14,810 bases of DNA from Nanoarchaeota archaeon (GTDB lineage Archaea; EX4484-52; LFW-46). The notes below the pieces were generated by a model. It searched no databases. It worked only from the letters and a program-made list of their open reading frames with translations, and had not been told where the DNA came from. Positions 1,981 to 14,810 of the stretch are shown here, piece after piece; position 1 is the first letter of the stretch, and each line of letters starts with the position of its first letter. The stretch spans positions 1-14,810 of the forward strand of contig JAHILE010000009.1 in assembly GCA_018897155.1 (NCBI GenBank), written 5' to 3'. The translations under genes and the position numbers were made by a program.

Positions 1981-2379
1981 TTGAAAGAAGAATTGCATAA
2001 AAGAAATTTTGAAGAAAGCCTTGCAGTCATAAACGACTGCATTGAAAAAGGCCTGATTTCCTAACGGCAAAGAACTATAGGATTTCATTGCTCTGCCGCA
2101 GCCGTTGACCTGCTTGAAATCATCCTGCATAAACACCATTTGATAAGCCCGGGCACGCAGCTCAAACATGATTGGTTTGGTTCAGAGAACAAAATAAAAG
2201 AAAAACTTAGCTTTGATTTTCCGCACAAAAAAGACATAATCGCGCTCATCATGGCTGTTGAGAAAAACAGAAACCTGCTGTGCTATGGAAAGCCTCAGCC
2301 TGAAAAAGAAATAGAGCAGCTCATTATCAATTTCAAAAAACTTGTCAAAATAGCTGAAGAAGAAGGTGTTCTACCATGA
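1981..2379 (+). pseudogene. HEPN-domain protein gene interrupted by a TAA codon
   Basis: From TTG 1981 (GGAG six nt upstream) the frame runs 132 codons to the TGA at 2377-2379, interrupted only by TAA at 2062-2064 (codon 28). The sequence on both sides reads as one helical HEPN protein. The residues after the stop (RQRTIGFHCSAAAVDLLEI) fit directly onto those before it, and a Tyr codon at the stop would restore the frame. HEPN proteins are typically RNases or toxins paired with MNT nucleotidyltransferases, as here. The usual R-x4-6-H motif near the last helix appears as R97-NLLC-Y102, with Tyr in place of His, so even the restored product might not be a standard RNase. A TTG at 2140 could restart translation and give a 79-aa C-terminal fragment. 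The 3' end overlaps the MNT gene by ATGA. Confidence 0.65.
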
Positions 2380-2987
2380 AAGAAAACTTAGTAATATCCT
2401 ATGCAGCTGATTTCGTTTCATTTGTTTTATCGCGGCCAAAAACATTCAAAAAAATCGATGAAATCGTGCTTTTCGGGTCTGTTGCGCGCAAAGAAGCGGG
2501 CGAAAATAGCGATGTTGATATTTTCATAAACACGCCAGAAGAAAAAACAGTAGAGCTTGAAATTGAGATTGCAAAAAAAGAGTTTTACGAAAGCGTAAAG
2601 TTCAAAAAATACTGGAAACTTCTTGGAGTAGAAAACGACATCCGCTGCGTTGTTGGCAAACTGGAAGAATGGAATGACTTAAAAGGAAGCATACTTTCGG
2701 ACGGCATAGTACTTTATGGAAAATACAAAGAATCCGCCGAACCGGCAAAACTGTTTGCGATATTTGACTGGCGCGCCATAAAGCCGGAAACAAAACGTGC
2801 GCTTTTCAACAAAAGGATGTTTGGCTATAAGCAAAAAGGAAAAAGTTACGCAGGCATGCTGCAAAAATCCGGCGGCCAAAAGCTTGACAATTCCGTGCTT
2901 GTGCCTGTTGAAAATTCAAAAGATATGTTGAAGCTGTTCAGGGATATGAACATCTCAGTCAAAATCAGGAATGTAAATGAGTATTGA
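2376..2987 (+). CDS. MNT-type nucleotidyltransferase, HEPN partner (antitoxin-like)
   Basis: The minimal nucleotidyltransferase signature is complete: GS at residues 34-35 in VLFGSVARKE, then ten residues to D46-V-D48, the GS-x10-DxD pattern that binds metal and NTP. A third carboxylate probably lies in the strand around ENDIRCVVG. The 203-aa protein has a C-terminal extension (from about residue 115) rich in Lys, Arg and Tyr that resembles an extra domain of some archaeal members. In HEPN/MNT pairs the MNT protein neutralises the HEPN toxin, in studied cases by adenylylating a Tyr near the HEPN active site. The ATG sits in an ATGA overlap with the HEPN stop, with AAGGTG seven nt before it, so translation is coupled. 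It is intact although its partner is interrupted. Confidence 0.85.
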   Translation: MKENLVISYAADFVSFVLSRPKTFKKIDEIVLFGSVARKEAGENSDVDIFINTPEEKTVELEIEIAKKEFYESVKFKKYWKLLGVENDIRCVVGKLEEWNDLKGSILSDGIVLYGKYKESAEPAKLFAIFDWRAIKPETKRALFNKRMFGYKQKGKSYAGMLQKSGGQKLDNSVLVPVENSKDMLKLFRDMNISVKIRNVNEY

Positions 2988-3335: not shown

Positions 3336-3830
3336 ATGGGTTTGTTAAAAAAAATAGGAATTGGACTTCTTGCACTCATAGTGCTTGGGATGATTTTTGG
3401 AGGAAACTCCAATAAGCCGGGCGCACCAACTTCAACGGATAATTCTAAATCATCAACACAAGCAACGCCAGTGCAGAAAACGTTAATGAGTAATTCTTTT
3501 GAGAGTGATTATGAAGATATTTACTGTGATGAAGACGCTACCGCGTTGCAAAAAAAGACACTATTTGAAGAAAAATTTAAAGGTCAATATGTGAATTGGA
3601 CTGGAGAAGTATCGCGTGTTGCAGAATCTTATGGTAATTATGTGCTGAATGTAAAACATTGTCCGGATACTTTTACTTCCGACATACGCATCACTATGAA
3701 AAAAGACCAGAAAGATAAACTCCTGAAATTAACGGAAGGTGATGAAGTCACATATATTGCAAAATTAACCGATTTTGGCGAAATAATGGGACTCTCCGCT
3801 AACGATGGTGAGATAGTCAGCATTCAGTAA
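3336..3830 (+). CDS. Membrane-anchored protein with OB-fold-like domain
   Basis: The N-terminus has Lys residues followed by one hydrophobic segment (about residues 7-22, IGIGLLALIVLGMIFGG). A Ser/Thr/Pro/Gln-rich linker (25-50) comes next, then a compact domain of about 100 residues. That domain (YVNWTGEVSRV..YGNYVLNVKH..TSDIRITMKK..LKLTEGDEVTYIAKLTDFG) has the spacing of a five-stranded OB-fold of the tRNA_anti-like type. Two Cys residues (DIYCDE and VKHCPD) could form a disulfide. Topology is N-in with the domain outside. It is followed after 15 nt by a small membrane protein gene, probably in the same transcript. There is no catalytic motif and the role is unknown. Confidence 0.7.
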   Translation: MGLLKKIGIGLLALIVLGMIFGGNSNKPGAPTSTDNSKSSTQATPVQKTLMSNSFESDYEDIYCDEDATALQKKTLFEEKFKGQYVNWTGEVSRVAESYGNYVLNVKHCPDTFTSDIRITMKKDQKDKLLKLTEGDEVTYIAKLTDFGEIMGLSANDGEIVSIQ

Positions 3831-3845
3831 AAACGGTTGGTTTAT

Positions 3846-4175
3846 ATGGCAAGGACAGCTGAACTTATTTTAGGATTACTTGGAGGAATAATAGGCTTAG
3901 TAGCCTCAGCAGCAGCACTATTCTTTGGTGGATTAGGTGGCGCCCTTGGTGCCGAAGGCGCTTCTCAAATTGTCGGTCTTGGATGATTAGCTGTTTTAGC
4001 ATCGATTGTAGGAATTATTGGCGCAGCTCTCGTAAAAAGCAAAACAAAACTTGGAGGACGGCTAATGCTAATAAGTGCTATTGTTGGGTTGATGGCGATA
4101 AGCGCATTTTATATTAGTTCAACCATTTTACTCGGAATTGCTGGTCTTTTGGCATTATTGAGAAAGAATGATTAA
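3846..4175 (+). pseudogene. Small four-helix membrane protein gene interrupted by TGA
   Basis: From ATG 3846, with GGTTGG just upstream, the frame runs 109 codons to TAA 4173-4175, broken only by TGA at 3984-3986 (codon 47). The product is very hydrophobic with four likely membrane helices (about residues 7-30, 40-62, 70-90 and 92-105) and Gly/Ala-rich turns, resembling DUF4064-like membrane proteins. The stop sits in VGLG-stop-LAVLASI, where a Trp (TGG) would read naturally, so a single G-to-A change explains it. TGA is used as a normal stop by at least five genes in this window, which argues against UGA meaning Trp. It follows the OB-fold-like gene by 15 nt. Confidence 0.6.
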
Positions 4176-4480
4176 GGCATTTAACAAAAATAATCGTTGA
4201 AAGTCATCCAACAAATATAATTCTATGGCAACGAAATTTCGTTGAACTTACGCATTTATAAATCTTTAATTCCAATATATTTCGTTGAAGAAAAGGATAA
4301 TAGGGATACCCACATAACACATAACAAATATTTGTAATATATAAGATTGTACGCATAATAAAAACTGTTGTTATTGACGCTTGTTCTCTATTATTTTAAT
4401 TAACATTTATTTAAAAACAACATTAACAACATGAGTTGTTTTTTGATAAATTATACCCTAATTATTGATTAATATTTGAA
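4176..4480. other. AT-rich non-coding region before the exosome genes, with repeated TCGTTGAA
   Basis: No convincing gene was found in these 305 nt. TCGTTGAA occurs three times in the same orientation (4194-4201, 4239-4246, 4282-4289), 45 and 43 bp apart, near four helical turns. The middle copy lies in a perfect 16-bp palindrome CAACGAAATTTCGTTG (4229-4244). The last two copies extend to 11 identical bases (ATTTCGTTGAA) and flank a TATA-like TTTATAAAT (4254-4262), whose predicted start point (about 4284) falls in the third copy. A second box, TTATACC at 4451, suits a leaderless rrp4 start at 4481. Confidence 0.5.
4413..4443 (+). repeat. Alternative hairpins upstream of rrp4
   Basis: AAAAACAAC (4413-4421) is perfectly complementary to GTTGTTTTT (4435-4443) with a 13-nt loop. 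A second AACAAC (4425-4430) can instead pair with GTTGTT (4435-4440) across ATGA. The two structures exclude each other. The stems are AT-rich and weak, so this may be chance in a biased region. Confidence 0.3.
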
Positions 4481-5308
4481 ATGGTGAAACGCATGATGCA
4501 AACACAAACACAATTAGACACGCAGCCTGAGGCAACTACTGAAGGCGCGCAAAAAGATGTAAAAGAACAAAAAATCGTTCTTCCGGGCGATTTTCTTGTT
4601 GAAAGCAAGGAGATACTTCCAGGATACGGAACATATCGCGTCGGTGATAAAATATATGCAAAGCTCGTTGGAATACAAATGCACGGGCCAAGAGTGGTTT
4701 ATGTAGTCCCTCTTGCAGGATCTTATGTTCCTAAGCCGGGTGATTATGTGGTGGGTGAAATAAAAGAAGCTGCATTCTCATTCTGGAATATCGACATAAA
4801 CTCCCCATACAGCGCGGCAATGTCATCGATGGACACAAATGATTTCATACCTAAAGCAGCTGACCTCTCGAGATACTTCAATGTCGGCGACCTGATTTTC
4901 TGCCTTGTCTCAGGCGTGACACAAAGCAAATACACAAATGTCTCAATGAGGGACCCGAAAGCAAGAAAGCTTGTTGGCGGCGTGGTTATCGAGATGACTT
5001 CAAGCAAAATTCCAAGGCTCATCGGAAAAGAAGGCTCGATGATAAATCTCATAAAGGACAAGACAAAATGCTTTCTTACAGCAGGCCAAAATGGCAGAGT
5101 CTGGATAAAAGGAGAACATGAAGACATCGCTGTTGAAGCAGTGCAGATGATTGAGAAATTTGCGCACACGCAAGGGCTGACAGACAGGATGAATACTTTT
5201 TTGATTGACGCGCTTGCCAAAAAAGGTGTTCATGTTTTGGCTCAGGCACTTGTGAAAGCGCCGGAAAACAAGATTGCGGAAAACGCGGAAGGAGAGGTAA
5301 TTGAATAA
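4481..5308 (+). CDS. rrp4: Exosome cap subunit Rrp4 (S1 and KH domains)
   Basis: Rrp4 forms part of the RNA-binding cap over the Rrp41-Rrp42 hexamer of the archaeal exosome. The expected domains are in order. First is an N-terminal beta domain (VLPGDFLVESKEILPGYGTY), then an S1 domain with its usual opening (GDKIYAKLVGI and VYVVPLAGSYVPKPGDYVVG). The KH domain carries a GxxG-type loop (LIGKEGSMI) near residues 180-190. The C-terminal Glu-rich tail is variable. The first 25 residues are an unconserved Gln/Thr-rich stretch, so the start is uncertain. ATG 4481 lies 30 nt after the first T of TTATACC, the leaderless spacing of other genes here. ATG 4493 and 4496 are alternatives served by GGTG at 4483. 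TAA at 5306-5308 is followed by rrp41 after 12 nt. Confidence 0.95.
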   Translation: MVKRMMQTQTQLDTQPEATTEGAQKDVKEQKIVLPGDFLVESKEILPGYGTYRVGDKIYAKLVGIQMHGPRVVYVVPLAGSYVPKPGDYVVGEIKEAAFSFWNIDINSPYSAAMSSMDTNDFIPKAADLSRYFNVGDLIFCLVSGVTQSKYTNVSMRDPKARKLVGGVVIEMTSSKIPRLIGKEGSMINLIKDKTKCFLTAGQNGRVWIKGEHEDIAVEAVQMIEKFAHTQGLTDRMNTFLIDALAKKGVHVLAQALVKAPENKIAENAEGEVIE

Positions 5309-5320
5309 ACGGTGGTCATT

Positions 5321-6043
5321 ATGAAAAATAAAGAAACAACATTCAATCCAAGCGATCCCAGGCCTGACGGAAGGCGAAACGATGAAATGCGGCCGCTGAA
5401 AATCGAAGTCGGAATAATTGAGCGGGCAAATGGCTCTGCTTATGTCGAATTCGGAAATACGCATGCAATAGCAGCAGTTTATGGACCGAGCACAGTGCAT
5501 CCAAGGCACCTTGAAGACACGCAAAAGGCGGTCATAATGTGCAAGTACAATATGATCCCATTCTCAGTAGCTGATAGAAAGAGGCCGGGATACGACAGAC
5601 GCTCGATTGAAATTTCAAAAGTCATAAAAGAAGCGCTGGAACCGGCAATTTTTGTGGAAGAGCTCCCAAAAACAATGATTAATATAGAAATGGAAATAAT
5701 TCAGGCAGATGCAGGAACAAGAGTTACTGCACTTACAGCAGCGTCTGTCGCACTCGCAGATGCAGGAATTCCGATGAGGGATCTTGTTTCAGCTATCGCA
5801 GTAGGGAGGGCAAACGGCAAGATTGTTGTAGACCTCACAAAAGAAGAGGAAGACGCATCAGATGCAGTTGACATGCCTCTTGCAATAATGCAGAACTCTG
5901 GCAAAATCTCTCTTTTGCAGATGGATGGTGACATAACTCCTGCAGAAATTTCAGAGGCTCTTGAACTTGGAAAAAAGGTCTGCGCAGAAATCTGCCAAAA
6001 GCAGAAAGAAGCCCTGAAAAAGAAATACGATGTAAACGAATAA
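5321..6043 (+). CDS. rrp41: Exosome catalytic subunit Rrp41 (RNase PH fold)
   Basis: Rrp41 is the catalytic subunit of the archaeal exosome and degrades RNA 3'-5' with phosphate, or adds tails in reverse. The RNase PH fold is complete over 240 aa, starting with the conserved RPDGRR (residues 14-19). Active-site residues are visible: Arg93-Arg94 in GYDRRSIEIS, the ADAGTR motif (129-134), and Asp184 in AVDMPLAIM, the likely general acid/metal ligand. The protein therefore appears active. An in-frame GTG at 5312 exists, but ATG 5321, with GGTGG just upstream, is preferred. The gene follows rrp4 by 12 nt and is separated from rrp42 by 126 nt holding a large stem-loop. Confidence 0.97.
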   Translation: MKNKETTFNPSDPRPDGRRNDEMRPLKIEVGIIERANGSAYVEFGNTHAIAAVYGPSTVHPRHLEDTQKAVIMCKYNMIPFSVADRKRPGYDRRSIEISKVIKEALEPAIFVEELPKTMINIEMEIIQADAGTRVTALTAASVALADAGIPMRDLVSAIAVGRANGKIVVDLTKEEEDASDAVDMPLAIMQNSGKISLLQMDGDITPAEISEALELGKKVCAEICQKQKEALKKKYDVNE

Positions 6044-6082
6044 TTGGGGAGGTTTTAACCCAAAACATATTGTGAATGGTTA

Positions 6083-6127
6083 AAAATCTTGAAATTGATT
6101 TGTATAACGAGCCAATTTCAAGCTTTT
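6083..6127 (+). repeat. Inter-cistronic stem-loop between rrp41 and rrp42
   Basis: CTTGAAATTG (6088-6097) and CAATTTCAAG (6113-6122) are perfect 10-bp arms with a 15-nt loop. Past one mismatch (6087/6123) four more A-T pairs (6083-6086 with 6124-6127) extend the stem to 14 of 15 pairs. The loop contains TGTATAAC, which also looks like a weak TATA box for rrp42. The element may act as an RNA hairpin (processing, attenuation) or as a DNA operator around a promoter. Confidence 0.6.
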
Positions 6128-6169
6128 CAAACCAAAGATAATAAAAATGGTTAATGGAGATGTTTGAAA

Positions 6170-6979
6170 ATGATAACAAAAATTACAAGCAATTATGTAA
6201 TTAATCTGATAAAAAATGGAAAGCGATTTGACAAGCGAAAGCTTGACGAGATGCGCGACTTAAAAATCGAATACGATATTTCAAGAAACGCCGAAGGCTC
6301 AGCAAAAGTAACGCTCGGAAAGACAGTAATCATAGCAGGCGTTAAGCTCGGGCTATCGACACCATATCCGGATTCACCTGATAAAGGAGTTCTTACGACA
6401 TCTGCGGAATTCCTCACAATTGCAGCGCCCGAATTCGAACCGGGGCTTCCTGGCGAAGAAGCTGTTGAACTCGCGCGAGTCGTTGACAGAGGCATCCGTG
6501 AAGGCCATGCAATTGATCTTGGCAAGCTCTGCATAAAGGAAAAAGTAAAGGTCTGGATGGTCTTCCTTGATATAATGGTAATAAACCATGATGGAAATCT
6601 AATAGATGCTGCAGGCATTGCGGCTCTTGCTGCGCTGACGCATGCAAAAATGCCGAACCTCATTGTTGATGGCGAAGAATACACTACAAACAGGGATAAT
6701 ATGACCGAGCCAGTTCCTTTGCAGGATCTTCCGATACCGGTCACAATCCGAAAAAACGGAGGCGCGCACATTGTTGACACAACAGCTATTGAAGAAAACG
6801 CAATTCATGGAAGGATTACAGTCACCACAAAAGCCAATGGCAACATATGCGCAATGCAGCAGGGCGGAGCAAACGCTTTCACAATTGAAGAAATCAATAG
6901 CATTGTCGCGATGTCGCAGAAAATTGGAGAGGAGATTAGGAAAGAGCATTTTCATCCATCAAAACATAAATTGGGATGA
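6170..6979 (+). CDS. rrp42: Exosome ring subunit Rrp42 (inactive RNase PH fold)
   Basis: Rrp42 alternates with Rrp41 in the hexameric exosome ring; it binds RNA and shapes the Rrp41 active site but lacks catalytic residues itself. The 269-aa protein opens with a helix and GKRFDKRKLDEMRDLKIEYD, then EGSAKVTLGKTVIIAGVK, the Rrp42 form of the RNase PH fold. The signature LTTSAEFLTIAAPEFEPG..EEAVELARVVDRGIRE is present. The position equivalent to Rrp41's ADMP reads IVDTTAIEE, the non-catalytic form. The start is ATG 6170 with GGAGATG seven nt upstream; a TTG at 6164 is less likely. Distance from rrp41 (126 nt) is larger than usual for these genes, so rrp42 may have its own promoter. Confidence 0.96.
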   Translation: MITKITSNYVINLIKNGKRFDKRKLDEMRDLKIEYDISRNAEGSAKVTLGKTVIIAGVKLGLSTPYPDSPDKGVLTTSAEFLTIAAPEFEPGLPGEEAVELARVVDRGIREGHAIDLGKLCIKEKVKVWMVFLDIMVINHDGNLIDAAGIAALAALTHAKMPNLIVDGEEYTTNRDNMTEPVPLQDLPIPVTIRKNGGAHIVDTTAIEENAIHGRITVTTKANGNICAMQQGGANAFTIEEINSIVAMSQKIGEEIRKEHFHPSKHKLG

Positions 6980-7545: not shown

Positions 7546-7553
7546 TTTTTTTT
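7546..7553 (+). terminator. T-run terminator
   Basis: Eight consecutive T residues follow the stop codon of the 123-aa gene by one base. Oligo-T is the usual signal for archaeal intrinsic termination. The last T overlaps the stop codon of the convergent remnant. Confidence 0.6.
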
Positions 7554-7819
7554 CACGCAGCATCCTTCACTTCAATCCCGTTCTTTATCGCTTCGCTGAC
7601 TATGGATATCTTTTTTGCGCGCTCTTTAAACTCCTCAGGAGTAAAGCAAAGAAAATCTGCAGGATAATTCAAATTCCAGTAGTCGTACATTCTCGCACCC
7701 CGCTCGATAAAGTCCAGCTTTCTGAATTTCGGGCTCACAATAATCAAATCTATATCGCTCCACTTATGCGGCTTTTTTGAACCATTCGCCAATTTCTTTG
7801 GGTTCAAATCCTTTCGCAA
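7553..7819 (-). pseudogene. Nucleotidyltransferase remnant with damaged GS motif
   Basis: The C-terminal part is a clear MNT-type nucleotidyltransferase: KPHKWSDIDLIIVSPKF, then ERGARMYDYWNLNYPADFLCFTPEEF and a closing helix. Where the family has a strand and FGSxARG ahead of KPHKWSDID, this reads PKKLANGSKKPHKW. That leaves only seven residues between GS and the DxD instead of ten, and the preceding strand is missing. The frame stays open to 8047, but those residues lie antisense to the C39-like gene and look like shadow sequence. TTG 7819 is the only reasonable start near the domain. A different minus frame also reads protein-like up to a stop at 7764-7766 (AEKAYSNKVAKGFEP). That supports a deletion or frameshift in the 5' part. 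Probably an inactive remnant. Confidence 0.55.
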
Positions 7820-7833
7820 CTTTGTTGCTATAG

Positions 7834-7859
7834 GCTTTTTCAGCTTTGCTGAAAAAAGC
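7834..7859. repeat. Tight inverted repeat at the junction of two damaged genes
   Basis: GCTTTTTCAGC (7834-7844) and GCTGAAAAAAGC (7848-7859) form 11-bp arms with a single bulged A and a three-base loop. It lies exactly between the nucleotidyltransferase remnant and the broken 5' end of the C39-like gene. Hairpins of this kind promote deletion and can also end transcripts. Confidence 0.5.
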
Positions 7860-7897
7860 TTCGAGCGCGAGCGAGATGATCCTGCGGCGCGGCTGCC

Positions 7898-8512
7898 TTG
7901 CGCTCCATTCTGGATTTTTTCGGCAAAACCATGAGCGAAGAGGAAATACTGCTTTCTGCCGGAGGGTTTTACAACAGCGAAGGATATTATGGCATGCTTT
8001 CGATTCGCGCGGCAGTCATACTTCATAAAATGGGATTTGAAACCCACATACGCACATACAACACAGAAATTCTTAAGCCGGAATGGTCAACTATCGGCAA
8101 CATTGCATTGATTAAACGCCTTGAAGCGTTGAATAAAAAGCTTGTAAAGGAAAAAAGAAAGGCAAACGTAACTGTAGTTGACTCCATGCTTTATCTTCTA
8201 AAGAACGGGCAGGACTTGAAAATCAAGTTTCCTGAAACAAAAGACATAATACAATTTCTTGAAAGGAAAATTCCTGTCTTGATTTCGGTATGGGCAAAAA
8301 CAATTTATGGAAATTCAGACACCCTTGCAACTGGCGGCCATTATCTTGTTGTAATTGGATACGACGGCAAAAATTTCATAGTGCTGGATCCGTATAACGG
8401 GAAAGAGCGCAAAATTGACGAATCACTCCTGCTTCTTGCGTGGTGCAACAATGCGCTTAATTCAACGGATTTTCTTCTTGCAATAAAGCCAAAAAAGAGG
8501 GCGCGGCGTTGA
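7898..8512 (+). CDS. C39-like cysteine peptidase, 5' end damaged
   Basis: The fold is papain-like C39: a long helical N-terminal part, GGHYLVVIGYDGKNFIVLDPYNG holding the catalytic His148 and Asp164 (numbered from TTG 7898), and a C-terminal strand. No signal peptide or transporter domain is attached. The expected catalytic Cys is encoded just upstream in the same frame (TCC TGC GGC GCG GCT GCC at 7880-7897, reading SCGAAA). However, TGA at 7877-7879 blocks the frame and no ATG, GTG or TTG lies between. The available starts (TTG 7898, ATG 7931) both omit the Cys. One inserted base before the TCC would join the frame to an upstream GAT GAT, giving DDSCGAAALRS. The gene is therefore either frameshifted or a pseudogene. 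C39 domains usually cut leader peptides at double-Gly sites. Confidence 0.6.
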   Translation: MRSILDFFGKTMSEEEILLSAGGFYNSEGYYGMLSIRAAVILHKMGFETHIRTYNTEILKPEWSTIGNIALIKRLEALNKKLVKEKRKANVTVVDSMLYLLKNGQDLKIKFPETKDIIQFLERKIPVLISVWAKTIYGNSDTLATGGHYLVVIGYDGKNFIVLDPYNGKERKIDESLLLLAWCNNALNSTDFLLAIKPKKRARR

Positions 8513-8594: not shown

Positions 8595-9365
8595 ATGCGC
8601 GTCATCTCAGTAGCTTCTGGAAAGGGCGGTGTCGGAAAAACAACAGCGGTTGCGAATATTGGAATAATCCTTGCGTCAAAATACAAGAAGAACGTAATCC
8701 TGGTGGATTGCAATATCACAACGCCGCACCTCGCACTCTACATGGGAATAGACCATCATCCGGTTACTTTGAATCATGTTCTTAAAGGAAAAGCCCGCGT
8801 TTCAGACGCAGTATATCCGCACCACAGCGGCGCGAAAATCATACCGTCATCACTCTCATTAAAAGATCTTGATGGCGTTGATGTAGCGAACATGAAACAG
8901 GTAATAAATAAGATAAAAAAAGCATATCCTGAAACCGATTTTCTGATAATTGACTGCGCGCCCGGGCTTGGCAGGGAAGCAATGGCAGGAATACGATCAA
9001 GCGAAGAGATACTTTACATCACAACACCTTATTTTCCAATAGTTGTTGATATGGTCAAATGCAACCAAGTTGCAAGCGAATTAGGCCTTAAAAAAATCGG
9101 TGCTGTAGTAAACATGAAAAAGAATAACAAGCACGAACTTTCAGATATGGAAATTGAACACATCTCAGAAATATCCATTATCGGATCTGTGCCGCATCAT
9201 CACGATGTTCTAAAGAGCCTTCATAAGAGAATTCCTGTTTCAATCCATTCACCTCGTTCTATCGCCAGCCTTGAATTTGACCGAATAGCTGCAAAAATCG
9301 CCGGAGAAAAAGTTCCTACCGGAGGCTTTTTAGGGCTGGTGCTGAGGATATTCGAACAGAATTAA
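8595..9365 (+). CDS. MinD-like ParA-family ATPase
   Basis: The deviant Walker A motif is complete (ASGKGGVGKTT, Lys at residues 10 and 15), which marks ParA/MinD dimer ATPases. The switch regions follow: ILVDCNITTPHLALYMG (near 36-51) and FLIIDCAPGLGREA (near 116-129). Late residues ISIIGSVPHHHDVLKSLHKRIPV match the MinD C-terminal half. The last segment, GGFLGLVLRIFEQN, is short and amphipathic, like the membrane-targeting tail that lets MinD bind membrane when ATP-bound. Length (256 aa) is normal. It is read from its own leaderless promoter. The next gene, encoding a coiled-coil SepF-like protein, begins within 25 nt and is probably co-transcribed. That suggests a role in placing division or membrane proteins rather than DNA partition. 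Confidence 0.93.
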   Translation: MRVISVASGKGGVGKTTAVANIGIILASKYKKNVILVDCNITTPHLALYMGIDHHPVTLNHVLKGKARVSDAVYPHHSGAKIIPSSLSLKDLDGVDVANMKQVINKIKKAYPETDFLIIDCAPGLGREAMAGIRSSEEILYITTPYFPIVVDMVKCNQVASELGLKKIGAVVNMKKNNKHELSDMEIEHISEISIIGSVPHHHDVLKSLHKRIPVSIHSPRSIASLEFDRIAAKIAGEKVPTGGFLGLVLRIFEQN

Positions 9366-9386
9366 TTAAAAATGAGGATGCGTGAA

Positions 9387-10472
9387 ATGACTGATGAAAC
9401 TGCTCCACAACCAACTCCTTCACCAAACGACAAAGAAAAGGAAATCCAGCAGCTAATAACTGAAAAAAAGGCGCTTGAGGAAAAAAACAAGCGTCTTGCA
9501 TCAATTCTTGAAATTACTGCAAAAAATGTTTCTAAGCTCAAAGCACAGGAAGGTGCCGAGAACAAAACGGGTGCGAACCTAACAAATGATGTGATATCTC
9601 AAGTAGCTTCGATAAAAAAAGAGATAGGCACTCTTGAGCGCAAAATAGAAAAATCGAAAGCAGCGCAGAGTTCGGAGCAGCTTAATGCAGTTATCGAAGA
9701 AATTAAAACGCGGTTTGAAAAAGTTGATGAACGATTGAACATTCTTGATAAGGTAATTACGCTTGAGAAAAAACTTGGAGAAATTGAAGACTCAATAACG
9801 CTCCGCAAAAAAAGCAGCTCCAATCTTTTTGGAGGCCTTGGAACAATAGGCGGCGCAAGCCCTGAAACCGAAAACATTGAAGAGATTGAAAACGCAACAG
9901 ACGATTTTGGCAAACTTGATGAAATAAATCTGAAGATTGATGCAATCATGAAAAAACTGGAAAATCTGCCGGCCGGGGAAAAGCGTTCGCTTTCAGACAG
10001 CCTGAAAAAAATGATTTCTTTAGGAGGAACTTCTGAAAAAAAGAAGCAGGATATTCTTGAAGTAAAGCAAAAAATGAGTGAAGACGACAATCCGGATACC
10101 GGCGATGTTTCAGGAATATCTTTTCGAAAAATAGATAATTTACATGACTCTGAAGAAGAGAATAATGAGGTTTCATTCAAGTCCAACATCAAAGGAATAG
10201 AATCTTTGGAAGGTATGAAGCTCAAGGTTCATACCCCGGAACATTTTTCAGACTTCAAAAAAATACCTGAAGATATACGAAGCGGGCACGTAGTTCTTTT
10301 GAATGTGAAACCGCTTAAAGAAGAAAACATTAGCGAGCTAAGGCATTTTGTCGAAAAAATAAAAAGGATTTCCGACGGGATAAGCTCAAAAATAATGGGC
10401 ATCGGAGAGCACCATATAATAATACTTCCAAAAAAAATAGGCGTGCATCACGATTCTGATAACGCGCAGTAG
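9387..10472 (+). CDS. Coiled-coil protein with C-terminal SepF-like domain
   Basis: Numbered from ATG 9387 (361 aa). Residues 1-15 are Pro/Thr-rich and disordered. About 16-140 is charged heptad-like coiled coil (KEKEIQQLITEKKALEEKNKRL, then several more stretches). A Ser/Gly-rich break (143-157) and a second coiled-coil or linker section to about 275 follow. Residues 277-353 match the SepF/DUF552 fold: LKVHTPEHFSDFKKIPEDI, SGHVVLLNVKPLKEENISEL and SKIMGIGEHHIIILPK. SepF anchors FtsZ to the membrane in archaea that use FtsZ. Ordinary archaeal SepF is about 150 aa with an N-terminal amphipathic helix, and neither the length nor that helix is seen here. The start is chosen for GAGG nine nt upstream; in-frame ATGs at 9372 and 9378 are alternatives. 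It follows the minD-like gene within 25 nt. Confidence 0.8.
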   Translation: MTDETAPQPTPSPNDKEKEIQQLITEKKALEEKNKRLASILEITAKNVSKLKAQEGAENKTGANLTNDVISQVASIKKEIGTLERKIEKSKAAQSSEQLNAVIEEIKTRFEKVDERLNILDKVITLEKKLGEIEDSITLRKKSSSNLFGGLGTIGGASPETENIEEIENATDDFGKLDEINLKIDAIMKKLENLPAGEKRSLSDSLKKMISLGGTSEKKKQDILEVKQKMSEDDNPDTGDVSGISFRKIDNLHDSEEENNEVSFKSNIKGIESLEGMKLKVHTPEHFSDFKKIPEDIRSGHVVLLNVKPLKEENISELRHFVEKIKRISDGISSKIMGIGEHHIIILPKKIGVHHDSDNAQ

Positions 10473-10519: not shown

Positions 10520-10897
10520 TCAGAAAAATTCGTTTTTTGATGCATCTTCAGGCATGTTTACGGGCCTTTCATGCAGTTTCTGGACGTCAGAATGGAGAAG
10601 GACTATTTCGCGCATAAAAACATCGGCATTGTATTTCCTAAGGAACTTCATAACTTCTTCAGAATCATCCAAACAGACAATTATCAACCCCCTTAAAAGG
10701 TTGATGTGCCTGAATTTTGATATGAATCCGGACCGTTCATAACAATACTTACCTTTATTCGACTTATCAGTATAACCGTAAAATTCGCGGCAAAAACGGT
10801 TTATTGACGAATGCGAATTAGTATGCGATATCTTGAAAGCAATAAGCGCTCCTGTGTGCGTTTCTATCACCTCGGAAAATTTCCCGAAAAAAGATAC
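10520..10897 (-). CDS. Conserved-looking small protein, start codon unusual
   Basis: No named family is recognised. The 116-aa product from GTG 10870 reads as a compact globular protein. It has THTGALIAFKISHTN, a basic SINRFCREFYGYTDKSNKGKY segment, then a strand and helix (LLRGLIIVCLDDSEEVMKFL) and a second strand (ADVFMREIVLLHSD). The protein-like frame continues upstream of the GTG (SFFGKFSE) to a stop at 10904-10906 with no ATG, GTG or TTG. The TATA box at 10918-10927 predicts transcription start at about 10896-10897, exactly at a GTA codon in this frame. Translation may begin at GTA (product about 125 aa), or a G-to-A change has destroyed a GTG start. The boundary given here uses the GTA. 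It converges on the SepF-like gene. Confidence 0.65.
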   Translation of the reverse strand, partial: VSFFGKFSEVIETHTGALIAFKISHTNSHSSINRFCREFYGYTDKSNKGKYCYERSGFISKFRHINLLRGLIIVCLDDSEEVMKFLRKYNADVFMREIVLLHSDVQKLHERPVNMPEDASKNEFF

Positions 10898-11174: not shown

Positions 11175-14100
11175 ATGGGGAGGGACTTAAAAGGAAGTAG
11201 CATGAAGAGCAGATATTCTGCTCCGACGGGCTTTGCCGCTCTACTTCGAAAAATCAAGAGTTCTGCATTCGGAATAAAGAAATCTTTCGTAAACTTCAAA
11301 TCGCAGGCAAGCGCAGTTTCTATCATTCTTGCCGCGGCATTTATCGTGGTGCAGTCCCTCATTCTGGCAGTAAATATCACAAATATGACATACGGCAACA
11401 GCTCATTAATTACAGGCAATTTCCTTGCAGGATTAGTAAACGAAACAAACATGACCTATGAAAATGGCTCTTCAATCATAAGCATTCTTGAAGAAAATGC
11501 AACGAATACTGAAATAATTATCAGTAATGCTTCTCAGTCCAATTCCTCTTTTAATGTTGTTAACGAATCGCAGGATAATCTTCTGCAAAACTACTCTGCG
11601 CCCGGAATCTCCCCTCCGGGTGCAGAGCAGGCTAATTCTACAGAACCTGCGGCAAATGAGGGTCTGAATGAAACAATAGAAAATATCTCGCAGCAAAATC
11701 AAAGCGTTGCTTATGGAATACAAAAGAACAACCAAAATGAAACTAATGAAAACAAATCTATTGAAAACAAAACGTTCAGTAAACTGTCCGCAACTGAAGA
11801 AAGCAGCCACGAACCCGCAGAAGTAGGAAAACCCGTAAAATGGCATAAAACAATCCAAATACAAAACAACAGGAACATAAACTCAATAAATCAGGAGATT
11901 GAACTGAGCATACCTGCATCTGCAGAAAATATTCAAGTATTCGAAAATAACAAATTAAAGGCATCGGGCAGAAAATGGATTGAGCCGCTCATAAAAGCAA
12001 AGGAAACAAAGGAATACTATATTGAGTATGAAACGCCTGCGCCGGAGATGAATATAAAAGGCCTTTCTGAAAAAGAGCGCCCGCAAGACACAAACCGATA
12101 TGATGTTATAAACATCTACCATGATGACGAGAACGGCACCATGCATTACTACAACGTAACTGTCAAGATACCCTATGATGAAAAATATGATGTTCTCTGG
12201 AAGAACGGCTTCATGGACATTGTATGGCTGAACGGCACTGAAAAGTTCTTCAGTGAACCGACATCGGTTATGAAAGATCCCGCGCATAACGTCCATTTCA
12301 TAGACTCAAACGGAAACGGCATTAACGATACGCTCGTATTTACTGTTCCCGAACTTTCTGCGGCAGATTACGGCCTGCCGGGATATAGCTGCGAGGAATA
12401 TGACCAGACTGTAGGGTACACAGCAATCAGATCAGAGACAAAAAATTATAACTGGACGCCTAATTACAACTGCCTTGGAAGCGGCCTTAACTGCCAGATG
12501 GTGAATTTCACCATAAATCGAAGGTATGCTGACGTTGGAAATGCTGTAGCGGCATATGTCCAGCTGGTCCATCCAAACACCACTTCGTATTATGTTAGCT
12601 ATGCTGCTGATATAGATTCTGTGGGATGCACGCCTCCTTATAATGCAACCACTGAATTAATTGACTGGAATTGGACATGTAGGGACTCATGTGGTGGAGT
12701 AGTCTCGCCTCTTGGGACGTGCAACATGTCGAAAATGGGATTTAATGCAAGCAGTTACACCGTCCGCCTTGTTGCAGGTAACTTCGTTCTTGTAGATGTA
12801 CTTCAGATAAAGCACACATGGTGCTGGCAGGAGGCAAAACCTCAACTAAGCAATCCGCTTTTGAAGTCTGAAAGCGCCGCTTCCTGGGGCGCTACAACAA
12901 CAGGCGGATGGGGAGAAAGATTCTATTTCAACATAAGCGTAGTAGATCCGCAGGGTGACAATGTAAACCTGACGCTAAAATGGAATCATAGCGCAAATCC
13001 TGCGAATAATTTTGAGTATCTGAACAACACATTATGTACATCATGCACTCCTGAAAGAAATGCAACTCTGAATTACAAAGGTTTTGCCTGTACCAATGCA
13101 GACACAAGCGTATTAGACACAGATGTCTTTTTTAGGATTAATGCGTCGGACAATTCAACAACAACCGAGAACAACAGCTGGGGACCGGACTTAAACTATT
13201 ATTTCACAATAGATAAAGATGACATAAACTCAAACAATATAACGCCTGCATGGAACATGACTGTAAACAGAAGCCAGGCATACAACTTCACAATACAACT
13301 TATAGATAGTGACCGGGCGGTAAGCCCCACAAGCAGCGAGATACAAAGCACTGAAACGCCGATATACATCTCAAAATTCGGAAGCAACGAAACATTCGAA
13401 ACATATTATGTCGCCATCAACTCGTCAGGCTACCTAAACAAAGAGATGAAAAACATATCAACCAGCTGGTGCCAGGACTTCTTTTACGTTGGACAAAATT
13501 ACTGGAAAGGCGGTGTAAGCAGCGCAGCCTGCTTCAAGAACAACCTAACCCAGCCTTCGCCGTCAAACGCGATTCCATTCATGCTCTACGGAAGCTTTAA
13601 GAATACGCTTATATTCCCCGACGGTTCAGCCAATTTTTCGCGTGGAACTGATACAATAACATTCAACGGAAGCGTTTATGACGACTGCGGAGCAGAAGTC
13701 ACAAGCGGAGTTTCGGTCACCTTCAAAATGAAACAAGGGGTAACAGAATATACCTGTTCCGCAAGTTATGTAGGAAGTGTCTGGAAATGCTCAATATCGC
13801 CGGACTATAGTTACACAACAGGGTATTACAACGTGACTATGATGTCAAACAAAACATACTATTACAACGGCTCTGCAAACCGGACAAATGCATTTTATCT
13901 AAAATCAATACCCTTGCTTGAGAATACTGCAGTAACTCCTTCAGCAGACGGATGGGGCTCTGAGCGAAATTTCTCAGTAAATGTTACGGATAATACAGGA
14001 GACACTGTAACCGTTTACCTATGGGAAGAAGTGCCTGCAAGCTCCGGAAACTGGATTCAAATAGGCAATTCTCAGCAGTGCAACAGCCCTTGTTCTGGAA

Positions 14101-14810
14101 ATATTTTATGGTGGACTAAAAATTATACTTGCACGAATTTTGTGGATTATCCATCGAGAAACTTCAAATTTAATGCCACTGACACTCCGGAAGGAAACGT
14201 CCAACAAACGTCATCAACTCCATTCACTCTGCAAAAAGACAATATAAGAATAGATTATGTCTCAGGGAATGAAACAACTGCAACGCTTTCAATACCTACA
14301 AATTTTAGTTTAAGGGCATTTGACATAACCCGCAACAACTACAACATATCTGAAGCACTCTATATGAAATTTAATGTCACAAAGGCAGGGCAGAGCAGCC
14401 CATACTACACTTTGACGCCAGCCTCTTTAAGCAATACAACAGGACATGCAAATTATTCATTTTTACCTGACGGTTCTTTCAGTATCGGAAAGCAGAATTG
14501 GACGGGATTCATTGACACGGTTTCCAGTGGCTGTTATAATTACAATGAATCTCAAGCATATAATGTAACTACAACAGGAACAAACATCCCGCAGATATGG
14601 GGCGAATTTGTGGATGTTGTTGTCGGAGGATGGGGAGATACAAGAAGATTCAATGTAACTGTAAATGACTCTGCAAGCAATGCAACCGTGCGTTTGTGGA
14701 AGTCCACATCAACAGGAGGGCCTTGGACTCAGGTGAACTGGTCGTATTACAACAGTTCGGGATCGGCTGAGAATATCAGCTTTGTGCAGAACTTCCCATG
14801 CACTGCTCCG
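11175..14810 (+). CDS. Large signal-anchored, N-glycosylation-rich surface protein (3' end outside window)
   Basis: One frame is open from ATG 11175 to the window edge (1212 codons without a stop), so the gene is longer than shown. ATG 11202 is an in-frame alternative start. Residues 1-44 are basic, and residues 45-66 form one hydrophobic helix (ASAVSIILAAAFIVVQSL), which by the positive-inside rule acts as an uncleaved anchor with the rest outside. An Asn/Ser-rich low-complexity segment full of N-x-S/T sequons follows to about residue 210. A beta domain with EYYIEYETPAPEM, of a kind I recall from DPANN surface proteins, comes next. A motif GGWGxxRxFxVxVxD...VxLxW recurs at about 12906, 13950 and 14628, so the ectodomain is built of large Ig-like repeats rich in Trp and Cys. 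It is probably an S-layer, adhesin or host-contact protein. Not recognised more precisely. Confidence 0.85.
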   Translation, partial: MGRDLKGSSMKSRYSAPTGFAALLRKIKSSAFGIKKSFVNFKSQASAVSIILAAAFIVVQSLILAVNITNMTYGNSSLITGNFLAGLVNETNMTYENGSSIISILEENATNTEIIISNASQSNSSFNVVNESQDNLLQNYSAPGISPPGAEQANSTEPAANEGLNETIENISQQNQSVAYGIQKNNQNETNENKSIENKTFSKLSATEESSHEPAEVGKPVKWHKTIQIQNNRNINSINQEIELSIPASAENIQVFENNKLKASGRKWIEPLIKAKETKEYYIEYETPAPEMNIKGLSEKERPQDTNRYDVINIYHDDENGTMHYYNVTVKIPYDEKYDVLWKNGFMDIVWLNGTEKFFSEPTSVMKDPAHNVHFIDSNGNGINDTLVFTVPELSAADYGLPGYSCEEYDQTVGYTAIRSETKNYNWTPNYNCLGSGLNCQMVNFTINRRYADVGNAVAAYVQLVHPNTTSYYVSYAADIDSVGCTPPYNATTELIDWNWTCRDSCGGVVSPLGTCNMSKMGFNASSYTVRLVAGNFVLVDVLQIKHTWCWQEAKPQLSNPLLKSESAASWGATTTGGWGERFYFNISVVDPQGDNVNLTLKWNHSANPANNFEYLNNTLCTSCTPERNATLNYKGFACTNADTSVLDTDVFFRINASDNSTTTENNSWGPDLNYYFTIDKDDINSNNITPAWNMTVNRSQAYNFTIQLIDSDRAVSPTSSEIQSTETPIYISKFGSNETFETYYVAINSSGYLNKEMKNISTSWCQDFFYVGQNYWKGGVSSAACFKNNLTQPSPSNAIPFMLYGSFKNTLIFPDGSANFSRGTDTITFNGSVYDDCGAEVTSGVSVTFKMKQGVTEYTCSASYVGSVWKCSISPDYSYTTGYYNVTMMSNKTYYYNGSANRTNAFYLKSIPLLENTAVTPSADGWGSERNFSVNVTDNTGDTVTVYLWEEVPASSGNWIQIGNSQQCNSPCSGNILWWTKNYTCTNFVDYPSRNFKFNATDTPEGNVQQTSSTPFTLQKDNIRIDYVSGNETTATLSIPTNFSLRAFDITRNNYNISEALYMKFNVTKAGQSSPYYTLTPASLSNTTGHANYSFLPDGSFSIGKQNWTGFIDTVSSGCYNYNESQAYNVTTTGTNIPQIWGEFVDVVVGGWGDTRRFNVTVNDSASNATVRLWKSTSTGGPWTQVNWSYYNSSGSAENISFVQNFPCTAP

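Follow-up and report, generated by a model that had tools for sequence, protein, structure and literature searches.

The window, meaning the whole stretch of 14,810 nucleotides that was analysed, is contig C9 of a 1.43-Mb genome that is 96% complete. It is of the same genus as the MAG LFW-46, whose genome is described as reduced and host-dependent and which is placed in the GTDB phylum EX4484-52, a DPANN sister lineage of Nanohaloarchaeota (PMC8561730); the window's genome therefore belongs to that phylum too. The features relevant to this study are as follows.

2140-2987, forward strand: gene with a nucleotidyltransferase domain (PF01909).
4481-6979, forward strand: operon of the archaeal exosome (Rrp4, Rrp41, Rrp42), located 5' of the gene pair.
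7553-8047, reverse strand: a further gene with a nucleotidyltransferase domain (PF01909).
8595-9365, forward strand: minD-like ATPase gene of the 'MinD-CC' subfamily, 256 aa, matching TIGR01969; assigned to the subfamily by score and pairing.
9315-9362, forward strand: hydrophobic amphipathic C-terminal tail of MinD, a candidate membrane-targeting sequence, GGFLGLVLRIFEQN.
9387-10472, forward strand: coiled-coil protein with a C-terminal SepF domain (long SepF), 361 aa (PF04472, AlphaFold2).
9423-9548, forward strand: first coiled-coil helix of long SepF, residues 13-54, the proposed MinD contact (alignment of 11 homologues, AlphaFold2).
9573-9827, forward strand: predicted second and third helices, residues 63-90 and 96-147 (AlphaFold2).
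9828-9842, forward strand: F-G-x-x-G motif 3' of the coiled coil, residues 148-152, with F148, G149 and G152 invariant in 11 homologues.
9843-10217, forward strand: variable linker, residues 153-277, with short helices 173-192 and 196-212; mostly low-confidence, with long stretches of pLDDT below 50.
10218-10436, forward strand: SepF domain (residues 278-350), in which residues 308-313 form the archaeal eta1 helix (PF04472, model and structure matches).
10520-10870, reverse strand: conserved orphan protein of about 114 aa, the convergent neighbour of the pair in families f1 and f5.
11175-14810, forward strand, running off the window: first part of a giant protein of secreted or surface type, which in f1 and f5 is the conserved neighbour downstream.

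The two central genes lie 21 nt apart (minD stop to the ATG at 9387), in line with the sequence-only reading, which had placed the partner gene of 361 aa within 25 nt of minD. The stop codon of long SepF ends at 10472, and its start aligns with the ATG at 4272 of a relative (locus L036), which supports the choice of start. An Rrp42 homologue also lies upstream of the pair in that relative. The orphan protein had no match in Pfam or NCBIfam. The giant protein is hydrophobic in a segment at its N terminus, contains an ITGNxL motif and is rich in N-x-S/T sites; its homologues at the same position in f5 reach 2714 aa or more. Since both neighbours are conserved in f1 and f5, a role of the pair at the cell surface is possible. 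The small gene that precedes the one at 2140-2987 may, as a guess from its look only, be a HEPN-type partner.

The window MinD scores 207.6 bits against the archaeal MinD model TIGR01969 (curated cut-off 201.75). Its deviant Walker A motif, SGKGGVGKTT, has the signature lysine intact, and GKGGVGKTT is invariant in the 12 MinD sequences aligned. The protein had been described from the sequence as membrane-tailed. Its C-terminal tail, GFLGLVLRIFEQ, is indeed hydrophobic and moderately amphipathic, with a 12-mer helical moment of 0.56 that falls just below the 90th percentile of random-window controls (0.58); membrane targeting by this tail is consequently no more than plausible. A second MinD, 40% identical to the paired one, is encoded on contig C10.

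The AlphaFold2 model of long SepF consists of three long helices (13-54, 63-90 and 96-147), two shorter ones (173-192 and 196-212), a low-confidence linker and a SepF fold at the end. The SepF core domain (PF04472) was matched at residues 278-350, approximately, with 39-41 bits (E about 1e-10; cut-off 27). The modelled fold at 279-348 follows the order beta-alpha-beta-eta-alpha-beta-beta with pLDDT about 90, and includes a predicted helix at 308-313 that corresponds to eta1, which in archaeal SepF is inserted after strand 2 and before helix 2 (PMC8178401). Foldseek aligned the full model with archaeal SepF (E 3e-5, target TM 0.83), and a separate model of the domain matched the solved archaeal SepF structures 3zie, 3zig and 7al1 (Z 12.3-13.6; Archaeoglobus 13.6, Pyrococcus 12.9, Methanobrevibacter 12.3). 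We also searched long SepF for the N-terminal amphipathic helix of canonical SepF; the best 12-mer moments in the two genomes that encode the protein were 0.28 and 0.35, against a control median of 0.41 and a value of 0.61 in the ordinary SepF of the same genomes. The architecture proposed in the sequence-only reading, that is, an extensive coiled coil, a SepF-like C-terminal domain and the lack of an N-terminal amphipathic helix, was thus recovered, and the structure prediction it had suggested returned a SepF fold.

Profile searches establish which part of this arrangement is widespread and which part is confined to one lineage. The pair is kept in the one other genome of the genus that was covered, the MAG LFW-46 (G030; L036/L041), with minD at 3480-4244 and long SepF at 4272-5495, so that the conserved pairing expected from the sequence was found. 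The window protein used alone had no matches among the named genome contigs, and an alignment of the two long SepF sequences matched LFW-46 only. A profile of the two reached further families within the phylum, but matched them only over the coiled coil, at loci where a MinD is followed by a protein sharing the first 160 residues. With a profile of the coiled-coil region, 11 genomes scored 166-235 bits and the next best match, outside the phylum, 28.7 bits; matches outside the phylum at this level and below were taken as generic coiled coil, and some 360 further archaeal genomes yielded no instance of the unit of MinD and coiled coil. The same 11 genomes were set apart by a MinD profile (421-475 bits, other MinD 348 or less). 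In all 11, and hence for every MinD of this subfamily found in the phylum, the gene immediately precedes one for a coiled-coil homologue, except in genus g4 of family f2, where one 75-aa gene intervenes. The pair occurs in three families: f1 (2/2 genomes), f5 (7/9, the two genomes without it being 68-72% complete) and f2 (2/2 genomes of g4). Note that six of the seven f5 genomes belong to one genus, and the sample therefore represents about four independent genera rather than 11.

The C-terminal parts of these partners differ from lineage to lineage. A SepF tail was seen in two of the 11 genomes, both of the window's genus in f1, bearing in mind that the coiled-coil genes of G021 and G010 end at contig ends, with their tails outside the data. 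Tails in f5 are lysine-rich or acidic and of low complexity, most of them ending in a short amphipathic helix (e.g. ISKTFGHIVDILHKH), and the f2 partner (G011) is a coiled coil of 1048 aa; no clear Pfam domain was detected in the non-SepF tails examined. Conservation over the 11 homologues is highest at residues 13-38 (0.70-0.77, against 0.35-0.68 elsewhere), and D15, L23, E26-K27-K28, N34 and A38 of the first helix are invariant. The conserved unit is this MinD together with the coiled coil, the SepF end being a C-terminal addition specific to one lineage. The proposal of a MinD-SepF module is consequently supported as to the reality of the pair, but not in the form in which it was put: the pair is not primarily a MinD-SepF module, SepF being seen in only 2/11 genomes.

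Two further long SepF candidates, a frame of 405 aa in G172 and one of 267 aa in G357, were rejected as probable read-through frames upstream of ordinary SepF; the extra N-terminal residues in G172 look unlike protein, and neither has a MinD nearby. Among 99 stretches with SepF, some of them overlapping, MinD was also present only in the window, in L036 and in L013. In the last of these (G029, family f6; 859-2593), an ordinary MinD precedes an ordinary SepF by two genes.

Long SepF is not the only SepF of the organism. An ordinary SepF gene lies at C50:19608-19832, with an N-terminal amphipathic helix, MVVRGFLERLKKEEN, and its product is 93% identical to that of G030. Elsewhere in the phylum, 27 of 32 other genomes have one ordinary-length SepF each, and the five in which a SepF match was absent are 71-82% complete. 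Two ordinary-length SepF genes each were observed in other archaea, at L085, L086, L121, L122 (G157, G360), L123 and L124 (G226); these genes do not adjoin MinD. The window genome has two FtsZ genes, on contigs C38 and C55, and G030 likewise has two. Three FtsZ genes rather than two, one of them with a longer reading frame, were noted in each of the f5 genomes G020, G025 and G019 (L143, L144, L146), where the MinD partner is without SepF. Archaeal SepF binds FtsZ C-terminal tails around a GID motif (PMC8178401), and both tails in the window genome (LGIEFI and LGISVIR) carry LGI, which is close to it. The sequence-only reading had held that a canonical sepF beside ftsZ would count against it. 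Such a second gene exists, on C50, and it lies on neither of the ftsZ contigs. The MinC C-terminal domain (PF03775) was found in none of 34 genomes of the phylum (6/14 controls positive) and is not among the Pfam matches of long SepF; MinE was likewise not found in the 34 genomes, with control genomes positive.

Sequence divergence between the two f1 species indicates that the SepF domain is constrained. Both the domain (pN 0.116, pS 0.744) and MinD evolve under purifying selection, the values for the two being pN 0.12-0.13 and pS above 0.7. Identity is 78% for the SepF domain and 78% for MinD, against 44% for the fast-evolving linker. A G-D pair kept by nearly all other SepF of the phylum is however replaced by SK in long SepF, and the two long SepF sequences sit on a very long branch (2.95) in a tree built from 76 rows and 85 columns of aligned SepF domains. 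Loss of the pair and the long branch imply that FtsZ binding, or the binding partner itself, may have changed. In M. smithii SepF the FtsZ-contact residues are K115, R118 and R130.

The constant part of the partner tracks MinD and the variable part does not, which is most simply explained by a MinD-binding coiled coil and a cargo-bearing tail. We therefore lean, by a modest balance of probability, towards a positioning ATPase of the ParA/MinD type that works through a modular coiled-coil adaptor; in this genus the adaptor's cargo end would be an FtsZ-binding SepF domain. MinD would act as the ATP switch, its ATP-bound form dimerising and binding the membrane through the C-terminal tail. The ATP-bound form would be met by the conserved helix 13-54 of the partner, which would probably also stimulate hydrolysis. 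Oligomers would form through the coiled coil, and cargo would be held at the C-terminal end, here a SepF domain that would bind the FtsZ tails LGIEFI and LGISVIR. From the modular adaptor, the SepF tail, the LGI tails and the pairing of a SepF that has no helix of its own with a hydrophobic MinD tail, we infer an ATP-controlled placement of the scaffold: MinD would place it, or keep it away, alongside the ordinary SepF that anchors the Z-ring. The contact of MinD with the coiled coil, membrane recruitment, ATPase stimulation and FtsZ binding are all inferred here.

This explanation is supported by the 11/11 pairing, the conservation of the first helix and the lineage-varied tails; by the SepF fold and family match, purifying selection, the LGI tails and the retention of ordinary SepF; by the lack of detectable MinC and MinE in 34/34 genomes; and, by analogy, by the precedent of modular MinD/ParA adaptors, in which a short N-terminal activator is grafted onto an unrelated interaction or cargo part (PMC7993993). 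Several observations weigh against it. Gene adjacency is the only link between MinD and the partner. The N terminus of the coiled coil has no net positive charge, unlike known activators, the first 45 residues of the 11 homologues being balanced or acidic (7-10 K/R versus 8-12 D/E). The SK replacement and the long branch could mean altered FtsZ binding, the MinD proteins of Haloferax have no division role (PMC11588486), and the conserved surface protein adjoining the pair fits a cell-envelope cargo equally well.

An unlikely variant, which is one sign of the preferred explanation and was separated from it since it predicts inhibition, would have MinD act as a Min-like negative regulator that keeps long SepF at non-division sites, where it would compete with ordinary SepF for FtsZ tails. 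MinC likewise couples MinD to the FtsZ tail, neither MinC nor MinE was found in the 34 genomes of the phylum, and ordinary SepF is available as the competitor. However, the long coiled coil resembles a scaffold more than it does MinC, and the sequence does not discriminate between attraction, repulsion and anchoring of FtsZ, no feature of it telling inhibition from stimulation.

The sequence-only reading had suggested that the MinD tail supplies the membrane anchor that SepF lost. In that case the pair would be an accessory FtsZ anchor, MinD attaching long SepF to the membrane and the two bundling and anchoring FtsZ as SepF does. The underlying observation stands, in that a SepF domain without a membrane helix adjoins a MinD with a hydrophobic tail. 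The need for such an anchor does not: each of the two genomes retains an ordinary SepF whose amphipathic helix is intact, so that long SepF is not the sole FtsZ anchor and an anchor supplied by MinD is not needed to attach the Z-ring. The MinD-coiled-coil pair moreover occurs without visible SepF in nine genomes. We regard this proposal as improbable; the retention of ordinary SepF makes regulation or positioning likelier than anchoring. Very improbable is a system that has left FtsZ altogether, the pair positioning other cargo, for instance a surface structure whose genes lie nearby or the giant surface protein itself, with SepF captured as a dimerising or polymerising fold. In its favour are the orphan gene and the surface protein that follow the pair in f1 and f5, the lack of visible SepF on 9/11 partners, the very long branch of the domain and the effect of Haloferax MinD2 and MinD4 on shape and motility rather than division (PMC11588486). 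Against it, the domain retains both the SepF core positions and the eta1 helix that belongs to the FtsZ pocket, with strong purifying selection.

The preferred explanation, a MinD-specific adaptor with a SepF cargo end, bears on how archaea may place their division site. MinD proteins are numerous in archaea. To our knowledge, no archaeal MinD has been tied to division, and we know of no such direct MinD-FtsZ link from archaea. A MinD partner with an FtsZ-binding fold makes the question of archaeal MinD in division testable with three purified proteins. The variation of adaptor tails on one positioning ATPase within a phylum fits the modular-adaptor idea, and the SepF-ended partner in one genus suggests an archaeal means of placing the division site that would have evolved independently. 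The broader proposition, an independently arisen archaeal Min-type division-site system in which MinD and a coiled-coil adaptor with SepF make a direct MinD-FtsZ link and cargo domains are exchanged, we hold tentatively, at somewhat short of an even chance. Taken singly, MinD, SepF and coiled-coil adaptors are familiar; new to us is a MinD-specific adaptor that ends in SepF and whose tails vary within a phylum. No combination of MinD, coiled coil and SepF turned up in the titles and abstracts of the literature searched, which covers archaeal SepF and archaeal MinD separately and excludes most subscription papers and preprints, and this agrees with the sequence-only reading, which knew of no such system.

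Comparison with known systems delimits the pair. Long SepF shares with archaeal SepF (PF04472; Methanobrevibacter smithii, PMC8178401) the fold, the eta1 insertion and a family score over the cut-off, and differs in lacking the membrane helix and the G-D pair, in a coiled coil and linker that add about 275 residues, and in coexisting with a normal SepF. Haloferax volcanii offers archaeal MinD proteins, MinD2 with HVO_0596 and MinD4, of which one is followed by a conserved partner gene; HVO_0596 is however not described there as a coiled-coil or SepF protein, and deletion of all four MinD left division unaffected (PMC11588486). PomX/PomZ of Myxococcus xanthus are alike in joining a MinD/ParA ATPase to a modular coiled-coil partner tied to FtsZ, but no homology was seen, and the positively charged N-terminal activating peptide of PomX is absent here (PMC7993993). 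Bacterial MinCD(E) is alike in that MinD has a partner that reaches the FtsZ C-terminal tail, as the partner in the present pair would; the phylum differs in that MinC and MinE were not found and the partner is a coiled coil with SepF. PomZ acts on the nucleoid and not on the membrane, and PomX is not known to have a SepF domain; PomX attracts FtsZ, whereas MinC keeps it away. Long SepF is thus neither a canonical SepF, since it has no membrane helix, nor MinC nor PomX, and the MinD-coiled-coil pair is best read as an analogue, rather than a homologue, of MinCD or PomX/PomZ.
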